Virus record (IMG/VR): IMGVR_UViG_3300032213_002526
Span: 1-46,555 of that record
Length of the DNA: 46,555 bases
Direction: 5' to 3' (one strand)
Source: a virus
In this document: positions 29,372-44,708 of the stretch, one piece after another
Layout of the letters: every line of letters begins with the position of its first letter
Position numbering within the stretch: the stretch's first letter is position 1
Translations under genes and position numbers: made by a program
Notes under the pieces: generated by a model
What the model saw: only the letters and a program-made list of their open reading frames with translations
The model's database searches: none
What the model was told of the DNA's origin: nothing

Positions 29372-30667
29372 TCAGTCGAGTCCTTTCCGTCTTGCTCCGT
29401 TCGTTGCCGGTTTCGAGGTGTCCCCCGGAGTGTCGAGTTTGCTGGCGGTGGTTTCGGCAACGTTTCCAAGTGTGGTTTTCGTAGGTGTTTCTGCTGTCTC
29501 GCCCGCTGTTTGCACTGCATCCAATGCTGTTTCGCTCACCTTCCCCCACGCTTCCCACACGGTATCCGCCGTCGATTCCGCGTTCAAACCAACGTAGAAC
29601 TGCATTGTCGTCGAAATGTCTTCATGCCGCATCAGCTCCATGAGGATCGGCGGCATGACGAGCCGGGACCAGCGAAAACCGAACGATCGTCGCAGGTCGT
29701 GAGCAGAGACCGTCTTGCCCGTCCGGTCGTTGACGATCACCCCCGATGCGGCCCCAATGTCCCCTAGGATTTCTGACACACGAGAAATGCTCCAGGTGTC
29801 GCCGTTGCGTTTCTTTTCTTTCGGCAGCGGGAACACCAGGCCCTTGCGCCGACCGCTAGGAGTGGTCGGAGTTGATTCGAGGAACGCGGCAAAGTCTGGC
29901 GTGATCGGAAGCAGCCTATCGGACCGCCCCTTCTCGTCTTCCGAATGAACCCGAATCATCGGCCGGCGCCCGGACAGATCCACCAGCATTCCATCCGGCC
30001 GGTCCCATGAGAGTTTCAGTGCCTCGCCCAACCGCAGGCCGGACAGCCACAGCCCGCGGATCAGGCGTTGCCACGGGGCCGGGTGATCGACGCAGCGCGG
30101 GACCAGGGGAACGGCGGCAACGTATTGCTCCAGTTCCGCCTCGCAGATCGGGCGACCCTTCATGATCGACTTGCGTTTGCCGCTGCGGATCTTCGGCAGC
30201 GGCGGGACGGCGGTGAGCAGGTTGACCGATTGGGCCCAGCGGAGAGCGGCGGCGAGAGTGCGAACGTACCCGGCGATCGTTGTTTCCTGTCGCGTCCCGT
30301 CGCGGAGAAATGCGACCCACTGAGCGATTTGGCTGGAGGTCAGATCGGCAAGGCGGTGGGGTTTCGCGAAGGCTTCGATCGAAGCCAGGGCGGTTGAGGC
30401 TTTCGAGTCTGTTCCGGCAGAGTGGGCGGACAGGACTTCGGTTTCGTACCGCTCGCGAAACTCAGTCCAGAGCACGGCACCGGGGCCAAGTTCGCGCGAG
30501 TCCCGCAGCTCGCGTTCCCAGCGTGCGGCCGCCCGTTCGGCTTCGCGGGTGTCTTTTGTTGCAGCGGATCGAGCGTGTTCACGGCCAGTGACGGGATCGC
30601 GGTAGCGCAGGTAGAGGAAGGTGCGACCGGGCTTGCGGATGACGTGGACGCGGGGGAGGGGGGCCAT
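29372..30667 (-). CDS. int: Tyrosine recombinase / phage integrase, 431 aa
   Basis: The catalytic domain shows all key boxes: GLWLSGLRLGEAL (first Arg), SAHDLRRSFGFRW (His-x-x-Arg) and LMRHEDISTTMQFYV (His and nucleophile Tyr). The N-terminal region holds an arm-binding-like start (RVHVIRKPGRTFLYLRYRDPVTG) and a SAM-like core-binding domain. The C-terminal ~55 residues are Thr/Ala-rich and probably disordered. It ends 17 bp from the tRNA-Arg attP fragment, its likely substrate. It should integrate and, with an excisionase, excise the phage. Confidence 0.92.
   Translation of the reverse strand: MAPLPRVHVIRKPGRTFLYLRYRDPVTGREHARSAATKDTREAERAAARWERELRDSRELGPGAVLWTEFRERYETEVLSAHSAGTDSKASTALASIEAFAKPHRLADLTSSQIAQWVAFLRDGTRQETTIAGYVRTLAAALRWAQSVNLLTAVPPLPKIRSGKRKSIMKGRPICEAELEQYVAAVPLVPRCVDHPAPWQRLIRGLWLSGLRLGEALKLSWDRPDGMLVDLSGRRPMIRVHSEDEKGRSDRLLPITPDFAAFLESTPTTPSGRRKGLVFPLPKEKKRNGDTWSISRVSEILGDIGAASGVIVNDRTGKTVSAHDLRRSFGFRWSRLVMPPILMELMRHEDISTTMQFYVGLNAESTADTVWEAWGKVSETALDAVQTAGETAETPTKTTLGNVAETTASKLDTPGDTSKPATNGARRKGLD
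29418..29434 (+). repeat. Putative integrase arm-type site, right copy
   Basis: GTGTCCCCCGGAGTGTC is a direct repeat of 29191-29207 with one mismatch. It lies in the 3' end of the integrase gene, where it encodes the low-complexity tail (DTPGDTS on the minus strand). Confidence 0.4.
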
Positions 30668-32310: not shown

Positions 32311-32382
32311 CGGGGCGTGGAGAAGCGGTATCTCGGTGGTCTCATAAGCCACAGATCGCGGGTTCGATTCCCGCCGCCCCCA
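32311..32382 (+). tRNA. tRNA-Met(CAT), initiator-like
   Basis: A full cloverleaf of 72 nt: acceptor CGGGGCG with CGCCCCC, D stem GAGA/TCTC, anticodon stem GTGGT/GCCAC with loop CTCATAA, 5-nt variable loop, T stem GCGGG/CCCGC with loop TTCGATT, discriminator A. Base 1 and base 72 are C and C, so they cannot pair. The D stem has A11:U24. Both are initiator features. The anticodon stem has G29:C41 and G30:C40, but U31:G39 replaces the third G:C. CCA is not encoded. Confidence 0.85.
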
Positions 32383-36188: not shown

Positions 36189-37286
36189 ATGGCAACAGCA
36201 ACGATCCAGCCGCCGCTCCAGCAAAACAGGGGCGTGCGAGCGAACGAGAATCAGGAAATCAACGTCGCGTTCAGCAGCGAGAAGTGGCGGGCGAAGGATG
36301 GCGGGCTGTTCGTAATTGCCACGGGCGAGTTGATCGTTGAGCCGGGAGAGAAGACGGGCAACGAAATCCCGGGAGTCCCCGCTGGCTGGGAATCTTCCAG
36401 TGTCACCCTCGTCGGCGAGTGCGAGCGCGGCGAACTGATCGCAGGCGTTGCCTACCGCTTCTTCGGTCGCTGGGAAACCGGTAAGCACGGCAAGCAATTC
36501 CGCTTCAAGAACTTCGCCAAAGGCCAGCCGCACAACCGCCATGGCCTCGTGAAGTACCTCGACAAATACTGCTCAGGCATCGGGCCGGGCATCGCGGGAC
36601 GGCTGTTCGATGCGCTCGGCTCGAAAGCTGTGGCGAAGCTCCGCAACGATCCAGAGGGCACGGTTGAGGAAGTCAACGCATTCTGTCGGCGGCAGATTCT
36701 GTCGCTGGACGTTGCCAAGAAAGCCTCGGAGGAACTGCGGGCGGTCGCAAAGCTCGAAGATACAGAGATCGCACTGATGGACCTGTTGAGCGGCCGGGGC
36801 TTTGGCTCGCAGCTCATGAAGCAGGTGATGGCGAAGATGGGGGCACTGGCTCCCGAGCGAATCCGCCGCGATCCGTTCTGTCTGTTGGCGATGCGGTTCC
36901 CTGGCTGCGGATTCCTGCGAGTGGACAAGCTCTACAAGGATCTGGGTCTGCCGGTCACCAGGCTCAAGCGGCAGTTGTTCGCGTTGCTCCATGCGATGCG
37001 AACGGACGGCAACGGTCACACGTGGTTCAGCGGTGCGGAACTCGCCGTGAAGCTCAGGCAGGCGATCGACGGGCTGACGCCGCGAGTCGAGAAGGTGGTT
37101 CAGCTCGGAGTGAGGGGCGGCTGGCTCGCGGTTTGGCGGGAGCTGGATGAGGTGGACGCGGTGACGGGTGAAGTGGTGAAGCGGGGGGCGGTCTGGGTGA
37201 CGGAGAGGGAGAAGGCGGTGAATGAGGCGGTGATTGCGACGCAGGTAGAGAGGTTGCAGGGTTGGCTTGTGGAGGTGGACCGATGA
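36189..37286 (+). CDS. RecD2-like helicase, N-terminal domain as separate protein, 365 aa
   Basis: Residues about 60-120 resemble the beta-barrel start of RecD2/YrrC (SSVTLVGECERGELIAGVAY; GKHGKQFRFKNF). Residues 135-260 carry helix-hairpin-helix units with YCSGIGPGIAGRLFDALG and SLDVAKKASEEL. These are the DNA-binding modules that precede the motor in RecD2. No Walker motif is present. The stop overlaps the ATG of the motor gene (ATGA), so the two halves probably work as a complex. Confidence 0.72.
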   Translation: MATATIQPPLQQNRGVRANENQEINVAFSSEKWRAKDGGLFVIATGELIVEPGEKTGNEIPGVPAGWESSSVTLVGECERGELIAGVAYRFFGRWETGKHGKQFRFKNFAKGQPHNRHGLVKYLDKYCSGIGPGIAGRLFDALGSKAVAKLRNDPEGTVEEVNAFCRRQILSLDVAKKASEELRAVAKLEDTEIALMDLLSGRGFGSQLMKQVMAKMGALAPERIRRDPFCLLAMRFPGCGFLRVDKLYKDLGLPVTRLKRQLFALLHAMRTDGNGHTWFSGAELAVKLRQAIDGLTPRVEKVVQLGVRGGWLAVWRELDEVDAVTGEVVKRGAVWVTEREKAVNEAVIATQVERLQGWLVEVDR

Positions 37287-38836
37287 CAACCGAACGCCCA
37301 TCCCAACCCACCCTCTGGCCCGACTGCTTCTCCATCCCGGAACTCACTCCGCACCAACAACAGCAAGCCTCCCTCGCAACATCCGCCCCCTTCGGCATCC
37401 TCGCCGGAACACCAGGCACCGGAAAAACCTTCACCGCCGCCGCGATCATCCGAGCCACCGCTCGGCAAATCTCAAACGCCCTGCACTGCGACGGCGTGCA
37501 AGCCCTCGCGGTTGCGGCCCCCACCGGGAAAGCAGCAGTCCGTTGCTCAGACGCGATGCAAGCCTACGGTCTCGAAATCAACGCGACGACCATTCACCGC
37601 CTGCTCGGGATCACCCGCAACGGGCACGACGGCAGCGGCTGGGGGTTCTTCTACAACCGCGACAACCCGTTGCCCTATCGCGTGATCGTCGTCGATGAAG
37701 TGTCGATGCTCGATACCGATCTGGCGGCCAGCTTGTTCGACGCCATCGCACCAGGGACTCACGTTCTGTTCGTCGGCGATCCGTACCAACTCCCGCCCGT
37801 CGGCCACGGCGCCCCGCTCCGTGACATGCTGCTGGCCCGTCGCCCAGATGGGTCTCAGGTAGTTCCATTTGGCGAGCTGACTGAGATCAAGCGGAACGAC
37901 GGGGCGATTGTTCGAGCCTGCCGGGCGATCCGGGCGGGCGAGCGAGTGCTCCCCCCTGCCCCGCATCAGTTCGATGTTGCCTCTGGAGTCAACTGGAAGC
38001 ATCACGAGATCGGTCGCCCGGCGATGCAGTTGGCGGCGCTCCAGACGCTGATTCAGTGCTGCCCGCCGGGGATCAACCCGATTTGGGACATCCAAGTTTT
38101 GACCGCGGTGAACGAGTCGGGCGAGTTGTCACGCCGGAAGCTCAACGAGGAACTGCAACGCATCCTGAATCCGCACGGGAGCCGGGTTGACGGGTGCTCG
38201 TTCAGAGTCGGGGACAAGGTGATCTGCACCTCGAATAACTGGCACGTCTTGCACGAGGACGAGCACGGGCGGAAGTCGTGGGAGTGGACCAACGACCCGA
38301 GCTGCAACAGTCGCGGGGTGGGTGTGTTCGATGAGGACGACAACGACAACGGAGAGCGGAAGGATTTCGTTGCCAATGGCGAGATCGGCCGGGTGGACGA
38401 CATCACCGGGGCGGATCTGTTCATTCGGTTCTATGGGCCGAAGCGGGTGATCCGGGTGCCGTTGAAGATGGTGAAGAAGCGGGACGCGGCAGGGGAGAAG
38501 AAAGAAGGCAACGGAGAAGCCAGTACAGAGGGCAACGAAAAGCCCGCCGGATTCAACGGCGACTTCGACCTAGCCTACGCGATCACCACCCACAAAGCCC
38601 AAGGCTCGCAAGCCCCAATTGTTATCTCACTTGTCGATGAGTCACGCGGCGCGGGAATGGTGACCTCACGCGAGTGGTGGTACACGGCCGCCAGCCGGGC
38701 TGAAAAGCTCTGGATGACGATTGGAAAGATCGAAGTGCTGAACAGGCAGTGTAAGCGGGTGGCGTTGAGGGATCGGAAGACATTTCTCGCGGAGCGTCTG
38801 CGAGCGGATCAACATCAGGAAGCGGGGGTGGTGTGA
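37283..38836 (+). CDS. RecD2-like superfamily 1 helicase, motor part, 517 aa
   Basis: Walker A GTPGTGKT (42-49), Walker B VVDEVSML (Asp138-Glu139), GDPYQLPPVG and the C-terminal YAITTHKAQGSQAP, followed by WWYTAASRAEK, give a complete SF1B (5'-3') RecD-type motor. The protein lacks the N-terminal hairpin domains, which the preceding gene encodes. The ATG at 37283 in the ATGA overlap is chosen over a further upstream frame. It probably unwinds recombination or replication intermediates. Codon use at the start turns C-rich compared with the preceding gene. Confidence 0.87.
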   Translation: MTTERPSQPTLWPDCFSIPELTPHQQQQASLATSAPFGILAGTPGTGKTFTAAAIIRATARQISNALHCDGVQALAVAAPTGKAAVRCSDAMQAYGLEINATTIHRLLGITRNGHDGSGWGFFYNRDNPLPYRVIVVDEVSMLDTDLAASLFDAIAPGTHVLFVGDPYQLPPVGHGAPLRDMLLARRPDGSQVVPFGELTEIKRNDGAIVRACRAIRAGERVLPPAPHQFDVASGVNWKHHEIGRPAMQLAALQTLIQCCPPGINPIWDIQVLTAVNESGELSRRKLNEELQRILNPHGSRVDGCSFRVGDKVICTSNNWHVLHEDEHGRKSWEWTNDPSCNSRGVGVFDEDDNDNGERKDFVANGEIGRVDDITGADLFIRFYGPKRVIRVPLKMVKKRDAAGEKKEGNGEASTEGNEKPAGFNGDFDLAYAITTHKAQGSQAPIVISLVDESRGAGMVTSREWWYTAASRAEKLWMTIGKIEVLNRQCKRVALRDRKTFLAERLRADQHQEAGVV

Positions 38837-39499: not shown

Positions 39500-40057
39500 A
39501 TGGATGAGCAACGCAACCCCGACCCCCACTACATCGTTGCCCCCTTCACCGTCCTCATCGACCAGCGCGAACAAGCCCCCTTCGCGTTCCAGAACATCGC
39601 ATCCGACGCTGCCTCCGGTGCTCACCCGATCGCGATCCCAACCCGCTCCGAGCTGCTCGCGACCGGTGACTACACCATCGAGGGCTACGCGGACCGTCTG
39701 ACGGTTGAACGGAAGTCCGTTGCCGATTTCGTCGGGACACTCACCGCAGGCCGCGAGCGGTTCGAGGCTGAACTCGAACGGGCGGCCGGGATGCAGGCTG
39801 CGTTCGTGGTGTGTGAGGGCGACTGGGATGAAGTGATGTGGCATGTGCTGCAGAAGCCTGCGGCCCCCGGCCGGCGCACAGTTCACCCGAAAACCCTGAC
39901 TAACTCCGTCATCGCCTGGCAGATGCGTTACCCGTCAATCCACTGGTGGTTCTGCTCCGGGCGGCGGATGGCCGAGGTGATCACATGGAGACTGCTGGAG
40001 CGGTTTTGGAATGAGCGGATGAAGGAGTTGAAGGAGCAGACCGCGAGGGCGGTGTAA
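39500..40057 (+). CDS. ERCC4/XPF-type structure-specific nuclease, 185 aa
   Basis: It contains the full metal-binding signature of the ERCC4 nuclease domain: VLIDQRE (Asp21), ATGDYTI (Asp57) and VERKSVADF (Glu70, Arg71, Lys72, Asp76; ERKxxxD). There is no attached helicase or helix-hairpin-helix tail. Such single-domain enzymes in phages cut branched DNA and may replace a Holliday junction resolvase. Neighbouring RecD2 and primase genes agree. An AAAGG site precedes the ATG. Confidence 0.82.
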   Translation: MDEQRNPDPHYIVAPFTVLIDQREQAPFAFQNIASDAASGAHPIAIPTRSELLATGDYTIEGYADRLTVERKSVADFVGTLTAGRERFEAELERAAGMQAAFVVCEGDWDEVMWHVLQKPAAPGRRTVHPKTLTNSVIAWQMRYPSIHWWFCSGRRMAEVITWRLLERFWNERMKELKEQTARAV

Positions 40058-42702: not shown

Positions 42703-43058
42703 CGCAAGTCGATTGCAAGTTCTGGCTGGGTGTGGCTGGGTAGGGATTTCCTACCCAGCCAGCCAGAAGTCGATACGGAGCATCAAGTTAAGTGCTTGCT
42801 GGCTGGGTTGTCTGGGTTGAATCCCTATTTCAGACCAATGTTGAGAAGTCTGTACACCACACATACTGTACACACAGGACACATTAGAGCGCAAATGGGA
42901 TTTTACCCAGACAACCCAGCCAGTAGGCCATTTTTCGGACGCATCACCTTACCTCTAAACACTTTGCAACTGGCTGGGTAGGGATTTCCTACCCAGCCAG
43001 TGAATTCCGACCGTCACCCCGTTCAAATTTTGCCACCATTACCCCGGAGAATTTCAAA
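42703..43058. other. Non-coding region with CTGGCTGGG inverted repeats, candidate replication origin
   Basis: There is no supported CDS in 356 bp. Hairpin A at 42733-42761 has 12-bp arms and a GATTT loop, extended outside by TTCTGGC/GCCAGAA (42720-42726 with 42762-42768). Hairpin B at 42970-43000 has perfect 13-bp arms and the same loop. A 19-bp perfect inverted repeat joins 42799-42817 with 42905-42923 and encloses two TGTACA palindromes (42851, 42867). The AT-rich end of the primase-helicase gene precedes it. Such placement is typical of phage origins. Confidence 0.6.
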
Positions 43059-44708
43059 ATGTCACTCGCCACCCTCGAAGCCCCCGCCCTCGAATTCGAC
43101 TTCGACACCCTGGGTCTCGACCTGCTCGCGCTGGACGAGACGGACGATCAGCCGGGCGATCCGCTGGCATGTTCGAACATCGACCAGGGCAACGAACACC
43201 CCGCTCCGTTCCACCCTTCGAGCCACCCCAATCCCGAGGTGCTGTTCACCGATAACCAAATGTTCACCATCGAAGATGACGAGGCCCCCGCCGCGCTCGA
43301 AGCCGAACCGCTCAGCCCGCTTCAGCTCCCCGCATCGATCCCGGCGGCGATCCAGGCATCGATGGAAGCCCCCGCCCCCATCGATCCCCTGACCCGCCGT
43401 CAGAAGCTCAGCCTCGAAATCGAAGCCCTCGAATCACAGGTCGTCGAATACTCCGAGACCGAGTTCGAGCTGGCCGAGAAGGTCTCGCAGGTCCGCAAGT
43501 GGCGGAAGGAAGCCTTGGAGAATCTCCGCGCGCTGAAGTGGCAACTCAACGCGATGAGCGAAGAAGATGCGGAGAAGCCTGTCGACATGCCCAAAGCCAC
43601 TCATTTTGCAGTTGCTCGCGCAGGAAAACCCGAAGGAAACCGCGATATCCATGCGCGAGATTCTTTCATGCCTCTTCCTTCAGCCCCTCAAAGTGGCCCT
43701 GCGGTCGACCACGGCGGCGCCCAGTCCCTCACCGCTTTGGGCGTCACCCCCAAGCAGCTCGAAAAATTCGAGATCGAAGGCATCCGCACTGTCTCGCAGT
43801 TCGAGCGGGCCCTCGCCGATCGATCGATCGAGAACGTCCGCGGCATCCAGGAGCGGACCCTCGACAAGCTCCGCGAATCGCTCTGGGAGTTCCGCAAAGC
43901 AAACCCGATTCCAGATCCCGACGACAGGCCGGTCCTGACGGCGAGCGAGCGGGATGCGAAGATTGAGCCGGCTCACAGAGAGCTGCCGATCGAACCAGAG
44001 GTAACGGCAACGGAAGCCCCACCGGCCAAGACCGCCGAATCCCCCGCACCTGAAGACCTCACCGCTCCTACCCCGGAGCAATCCGCCGTCGCCTACGGGA
44101 AGCCTTCCGCCATCATCGGACAAATCAACCTCGCAACCGATCCCCTCACGCCACCGCTCGCAGAAATCATCCTTCAAGCCGGCCGAGACGCTCGCACTGC
44201 TGGTTTCACGAAACTCGACAACCCTCTGCGAACCGGTGCCACCGTCCACCGGGAAGACCTGTGGAACGACGGCTGGGATGAAGTCGATCAGGAGTTCCAG
44301 GAGATCGCCAAGAAGCTCTCGGCAGGGGTCAGAGGCGAACCAGGCGAGGCAGCAGGTGCCCCGAGTGAAGTGACTGGCGAGGAAAAGGCAACGAAGCCCG
44401 CGAGGAAGCCACGAGCGAAGAAGGCGAAGGCAGAGGCAACGAAATCCCCAGACCCATTCGAGCTATACCAAACCGTCAAAGCGAAGTTTCCGGATTACAC
44501 GCTCTTTGTTCGCGTGGGCGATTTCTACGAACTGTTCTGCGAAGACGCGGAGAAGACCGCGGAACTCTTCGGCCTGACGCTGACGGTCGGAAAGAGGGGC
44601 GATTCACCAGCAATCCCGATGATCGGGTTCCCGGCCTACCAGCTCGAAGAGTACGAAGCGAAGGCATCTGAGGCCGGGCACAAGGTTCACATCTTCGAAC
44701 CGAAGTGA
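43059..44708 (+). CDS. Protein with C-terminal MutS domain I (mismatch recognition), 549 aa
   Basis: The N-terminus has EFDFDTLGLDL (12-22), then a disordered acidic region, a coiled coil (about 115-165) and a helix-hairpin-helix-like part (LGVTPKQLEKFEIEGIRTV, about 225-282). The C-terminal ~87 residues (463-549) match MutS domain I: FELYQTVKAKFPD, VGDFYELFCEDA with the Phe-x-Glu mismatch wedge (Phe489, Glu491), FGLTLTVGKR, IPMIGFPAY and a final HKVHIFEP. The clamp and ATPase domains of MutS are absent. It may sense mispairs or structured DNA, or block host MutS (inference). A GGAGA site precedes the ATG. Confidence 0.78.
   Translation: MSLATLEAPALEFDFDTLGLDLLALDETDDQPGDPLACSNIDQGNEHPAPFHPSSHPNPEVLFTDNQMFTIEDDEAPAALEAEPLSPLQLPASIPAAIQASMEAPAPIDPLTRRQKLSLEIEALESQVVEYSETEFELAEKVSQVRKWRKEALENLRALKWQLNAMSEEDAEKPVDMPKATHFAVARAGKPEGNRDIHARDSFMPLPSAPQSGPAVDHGGAQSLTALGVTPKQLEKFEIEGIRTVSQFERALADRSIENVRGIQERTLDKLRESLWEFRKANPIPDPDDRPVLTASERDAKIEPAHRELPIEPEVTATEAPPAKTAESPAPEDLTAPTPEQSAVAYGKPSAIIGQINLATDPLTPPLAEIILQAGRDARTAGFTKLDNPLRTGATVHREDLWNDGWDEVDQEFQEIAKKLSAGVRGEPGEAAGAPSEVTGEEKATKPARKPRAKKAKAEATKSPDPFELYQTVKAKFPDYTLFVRVGDFYELFCEDAEKTAELFGLTLTVGKRGDSPAIPMIGFPAYQLEEYEAKASEAGHKVHIFEPK

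Follow-up and report, generated by a model that had tools for sequence, protein, structure and literature searches.

A temperate phage carries a gene for a 549-residue protein that ends in a detached MutS domain I, with an intact Phe-x-Glu wedge, and that has none of the rest of MutS. By comparison of sequences, the same wedge is kept in isolated relatives of this domain that have repeatedly been joined to DNA-binding domains. Detached domains of this kind prove to be common in phages. Mismatch recognition by MutS is known only as the property of a large dimeric machine. The explanation that we favour, with a probability of about one half, is that the phage protein is a non-enzymatic, anchored wedge adaptor that would bind DNA at mispairs or kinks while the phage replicates or recombines.

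The window analysed is the whole of a virus record of 46,555 nucleotides (IMG/VR IMGVR_UViG_3300032213_002526), which encodes a terminase, a portal protein and an integrase. The gene for the 549-residue protein was delimited by its open reading frame and codon-position composition, and occupies positions 43059..44708 on the + strand. It begins with ATG, with GGAG lying upstream of the start, and its GC content by codon position (0.68/0.45/0.72) resembles that of the neighbouring genes, as expected of an ordinary coding sequence. Since the stop codon is 1.8 kb away from the end of the contig, the protein is not truncated there. A search by peptide patterns with the whole protein retrieved no close relative from the viral_contigs collection, and tblastn with the N-terminal 466 residues found no close relative in phages. 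The host may be a member of the Planctomycetota, judging from the style of the phage proteins.

The Pfam family MutS_I (PF01624) matches residues 469-547 (44463..44699, + strand) over profile positions 6-84 of 113, with an E-value of 1.8e-17 and a score of 64 bits (cut-off 20.6). The same residues match residues 15-94 of E. coli MutS in PDB chains (E = 4e-11), with 36 identities over 82 aligned columns between the two domains. The pairwise alignment places F489 and E491 of the triplet F489-Y490-E491 (44523..44531, + strand) on F36 and E38 of the E. coli wedge F36-Y37-E38. In MutS, specific binding to DNA is disrupted by the F36A substitution, and with E38Q paired and mispaired duplexes are no longer told apart (PMC3848065). 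When AlphaFold2 was given residues 463-549 together with 10 aligned relatives, it produced a model with a mean pLDDT of 90.9, the best PDB matches of which are MutS domain I, including that of G.T-bound E. coli MutS (TM over the query 0.86, rmsd 1.1-1.7 A); the model is not independent of homology, as some of its ten homologous rows are full MutS. Prediction of the whole protein from its single sequence was poor (pLDDT 45.5), but in residues 466-546 its helices and strands follow one another as they do in the domain model. The initial annotation, made from the sequence alone, had claimed a C-terminal MutS domain I with a Phe-x-Glu wedge and had set structure prediction of residues 463-549 as a check; both claims are borne out, and the predicted fold is that of MutS domain I and not a different one.

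The other MutS domains do not accompany domain I. Pfam gave no match to the MutS II-V families anywhere in the ORF and no second MutS_I match elsewhere in the 46.6-kb record, and the NCBIfam mutS1 model scores 63 on the protein against a cut-off of 642. The ORF terminates two residues beyond the MutS_I match, in agreement with the earlier statement that no clamp or ATPase follows. Because the match ends at profile position 84 of 113, the final part of domain I is absent. The possibility that the domain is what a frameshift or the contig end has left of a full MutS was considered and rejected: the stop is internal, nothing MutS-like comes after it, and other isolated domains end similarly. The domain has also lost the near-invariant His after GFP (GFPAYQ, versus GFPYHA in relatives), and it sits on a long branch (1.8), placed with weak support outside the large phage cluster in a tree built on 82 columns in which most forks are unresolved.

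The remainder of the protein gives fainter signals. A helix-hairpin-helix (HhH)-like stretch at residues 224-276 (43728..43886, + strand) weakly resembles the C-terminal domain of the RNA polymerase alpha subunit, which has an HhH fold and was matched by phmmer with residues 215-285 alone (E = 0.0066); on the same stretch, Pfam HHH_5 reaches E = 0.13 and 13.2 bits, below its cut-off of 27, and NCBIfam Dmc1 reaches E = 0.02, also below cut-off. Residues 372-410 (44172..44288, + strand) show a weak likeness to RMF/CrpP proteins, with sub-cut-off matches to Pfam RMF (E = 0.057) and to an NCBIfam CrpP-related family (E = 0.012). Single-sequence AlphaFold2 predicts a long helix at residues 110-168 (43386..43562, + strand; pLDDT 49-68), and this one low-confidence helix weakly suggests a coiled coil. 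The initial description of the protein as an adaptor with a coiled coil and an HhH part thus survives in a weakened form, the former amounting to that helix and the latter to a sub-threshold match; both features are plausible, though weakly indicated. Pfam detected no ArdC-N, peptidase or nuclease domain above threshold in the protein, MutS_I being the sole match at that level.

Relatives of the domain were gathered by scanning IMG/VR with alignments built from isolated domains, and a small number of loci from plasmids, phages and genomes were added; full MutS and edge-cut cases were left out. The resulting non-redundant set has 75 isolated MutS-I proteins, of which IMG/VR supplied 67. Isolated means here that no MutS Walker motif occurs in the same open frame, so that the set may include the odd decayed MutS. 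MutS-I is C-terminal in 27 of them, as in the 549-residue protein, forms a minimal protein in 21, and is N-terminal in 18 and internal in 9. The protein ends no more than 27 residues past the domain in 44 of the 75, and a missing end of domain I seems, from these sequences, to be common to many of them. The wedge was assessed on 29 non-redundant domains that came from a later IMG/VR scan, lack RVGDFYE and were retrieved by a pattern that does not contain FYE; F/Y-x-E is present in 29/29 (FYE in 27, YYE in 2), and stays while the residues neighbouring it vary.

Isolated MutS-I domains are found on several kinds of partner. ParB_N and HTH_ParB were also matched in 10 of the 40 isolated MutS-I proteins scanned, with MutS-I C-terminal in the phage protein of L119 (4234-6267) and N-terminal in that of L142 (5923-7977); the others are at L108, L127, L131, L144, L148, L154, L160 and L162. 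PHROG 18726 spans the ParB part of the L119 protein (residues 1-561) and leaves its MutS-I end outside. In these proteins MutS-I is joined to another DNA-binding module, whereas the 549-residue protein has the weak HhH-like stretch instead. Other fusions are with ArdC-N/MPTase, a strawberry-notch helicase and PcfK. One phage group has a separate ArdC-N-like gene directly before a small MutS-I gene, the stop and start overlapping by one base (L130 5486-6279, L134 1565-2358, L140 5486-6279, L145 4726-5444); the ArdC-N match is above cut-off in L130 and below it in L145.

MutS, like many other proteins, binds the sliding clamp through a motif with the consensus QLxLF (PMC4549789). A beta-clamp-binding motif of this type was searched for in the 549-residue protein and is absent. 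Among the isolated relatives, QL[SD]LF lies outside the domain and at most 300 residues away from it in 5 of 75 (L002, L115, L130, L150 and L180, the last from a later scan); 1000 shuffles averaged 0.012, and none of them gave five such proteins. The signal is partly post hoc, in that the form of the motif was picked once a few examples were known. A wider pentapeptide form is present in 7 proteins against 0.38 expected in shuffles, with L008 and L136 among its carriers, and hexapeptide clamp motifs are not significant in the relatives (2 observed; equalled in 68 of 1000 shuffles). Clamp motifs are present in some of the smallest isolated MutS-I proteins, and the majority of isolated relatives are without one.

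Detached MutS-I as a general phenomenon is already known and is not new. Iyer et al. 2017 (PMC5512222) described MutS-I in polyvalent proteins of mobile elements of Bacteroidetes and Firmicutes, which they called the sole case of the domain outside MutS. About 80% of their MutS-I proteins also have ArdC-N in the same chain, and they proposed that the two domains protect entering or early-replicating single-stranded DNA (PMC5512222). The 549-residue protein, a phage protein with MutS_I and without MutS II-V, likewise carries the domain outside MutS on a mobile genetic element, but it has no detectable ArdC-N or catalytic domain. Small phage proteins in BFVD (from Myoviridae sp. ctsK93 and Siphoviridae sp. 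ctZro7) match its MutS-I in fold; they bear the automatic names 'MutS domain I' or 'DNA mismatch repair protein', and at 74 and 153 residues they are, judged by length, without the MutS ATPase. By comparison, the protein described here has 549 residues with extra N-terminal parts, and the sequence identity is 19-36%. MutS-I-like folds also occur in short giant-virus proteins in BFVD, namely A0A1V0SJ64 (Klosneuvirus, 135 residues) and A0A3G5AEQ2 (Hyperionvirus, 254); automatic names of the same kind are given there to giant-virus proteins too. Bacterial MutS shares with the 549-residue protein the sequence, fold and wedge of domain I, but the phage protein is without the connector, core/lever, clamp, ATPase and dimerisation domain, and its domain I is C-terminal rather than N-terminal. 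As judged from sequence, what sets it apart from the known cases is the lack of any detectable ArdC-N or peptidase domain, together with a long branch of its own that, in the largely unresolved tree, falls outside the main phage cluster.

With regard to the genomic neighbourhood, the genes upstream of the MutS-I gene encode a RecT-like protein, a RecD2-like helicase pair, an ERCC4/Hef-like nuclease and a D5-like primase-helicase, and those downstream encode small proteins without family matches. No close relatives of the primase and helicase of this phage were found in viral_contigs. The RecD2-like helicase consists of overlapping ORFs at 36189-37286 (OB/HHH part) and 37262-38836 (motor part), an arrangement that may be a real split, a frameshift or a sequencing error. 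The nuclease is a stand-alone protein of 185 aa (39500-40057), and it is speculation that the HhH-like stretch of the MutS-I protein partners with it. Elsewhere in the window, a tRNA-Met (CAT) gene at 32311-32382 lies ~1.6 kb beyond the opposite-strand integrase gene (29372-30667). The intergenic stretch between the primase and MutS-I genes (42703-43058) is repeat-rich, with a z-score of -12 for the folding of its single-stranded DNA. It contains two identical 30-nt hairpins (42733-42762 and 42971-43000) and a longer imperfect inverted repeat, and the motif GGCTGGGTAGG is confined to it within the window even when one mismatch is allowed (4 matches, 0.39 expected). This stretch is possibly a replication origin.

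In the proposed mechanism, the C-terminal MutS-I module would push its Phe-x-Glu wedge into phage DNA at mispairs, loops or kinks; the HhH-like module and the long helix would add contacts to DNA or protein, replacing the clamp and lever of MutS; and the protein would hold or mark such DNA within the replication or recombination module of the phage. Since the ATPase is absent, neither sliding nor recruitment of MutL by the MutS cycle would be expected. Counted in favour of a wedge adaptor are the MutS-I match, the fold, the wedge and its conservation, the repeated joining to DNA-binding domains, and the position of the gene after those for the primase-helicase, the ERCC4-type nuclease, the RecD2-like pair and the RecT-like protein. 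From these we infer DNA binding, a role of the HhH-like part as the anchor, and a biological consequence. Counted against it are the sub-threshold HhH-like part and low-confidence coiled coil, the loss of the His after GFP, the branch length of 1.8, and a gene without a close relative in the collections searched. Domain I acts in MutS as part of a clamp-like dimer, and binding by an isolated copy may be too weak to matter. The functions initially suggested for the protein, which were the sensing of mispaired or structured DNA, tolerance of RecT-made heteroduplex and competition with host MutS, would be consistent with the conservation of the wedge.

Competition of this kind has been considered as an explanation in its own right, in which the protein antagonises mismatch repair by occupying mismatches in phage DNA and excluding host MutS, so that heteroduplex from RecT-type annealing survives; relatives that carry a clamp motif would, in addition, rival MutS in binding the sliding clamp. 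The intact wedge, the RecT-like gene of the same phage and the excess of QL[SD]LF near the domain fit such a role, but it is rather unlikely, and the 549-residue protein and most of its isolated relatives are without the clamp motif. It is improbable that the protein instead recognises the hairpins, or cruciforms extruded from 42703-43058, and brings the primase-helicase to this putative origin. The two hairpins and inverted repeat beside the gene, the folding z-score and the restriction of GGCTGGGTAGG to this stretch would suit that function; on the other side, the connection is one of adjacency alone, no relative of the region or the gene was found that shows the two travelling together, and the hairpins may serve transcription or another protein.

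An early factor resembling the polyvalent proteins, in which MutS-I protects entering or early-replicating single-stranded DNA, is more doubtful again. The proposal of Iyer et al. 2017 concerns the same domain (PMC5512222), and several relatives have ArdC-N adjacent to or fused with MutS-I, yet the 549-residue protein has no ArdC-N, metallopeptidase or other polyvalent catalytic domain, and the terminase and portal of the phage indicate packaging of double-stranded DNA, not conjugation. Least probable is a protein-interaction fold that retains the wedge residues for structural reasons only. The long branch, the lost His and the missing end of domain I would be compatible with such a fold, whereas in MutS both F36 and E38 take part in binding DNA (PMC3848065), and F/Y-x-E persists in every isolated domain assessed despite its varying neighbours.

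Should the wedge domain work alone or on another anchor, as in the favoured adaptor reading, it would constitute a minimal mismatch-binding module and would point to phages interfering with mismatch recognition or turning it to their own use. The retention of the wedge across unrelated architectures, together with the clamp motifs in the smallest proteins, makes this testable with proteins of ~100 residues. The role may lie among shielding from host mismatch repair, marking of an origin and help in recombination. A broader and rather conjectural view, which we would not expect to hold, is that the detached MutS wedge serves phages widely as a plug-in mispair sensor, for which ParB/HTH, ArdC-N, HhH or a sliding-clamp motif act as exchangeable anchors, and that this sensor protects intermediates of recombination and replication against the mismatch repair of the host, the 549-residue protein being one such device with an anchor of its own. 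Full host mutS genes were also encountered on many IMG/VR provirus contigs (L025-L098), often near the contig end, which suggests either that prophage boundaries are frequent near mutS or that trimming was imprecise.
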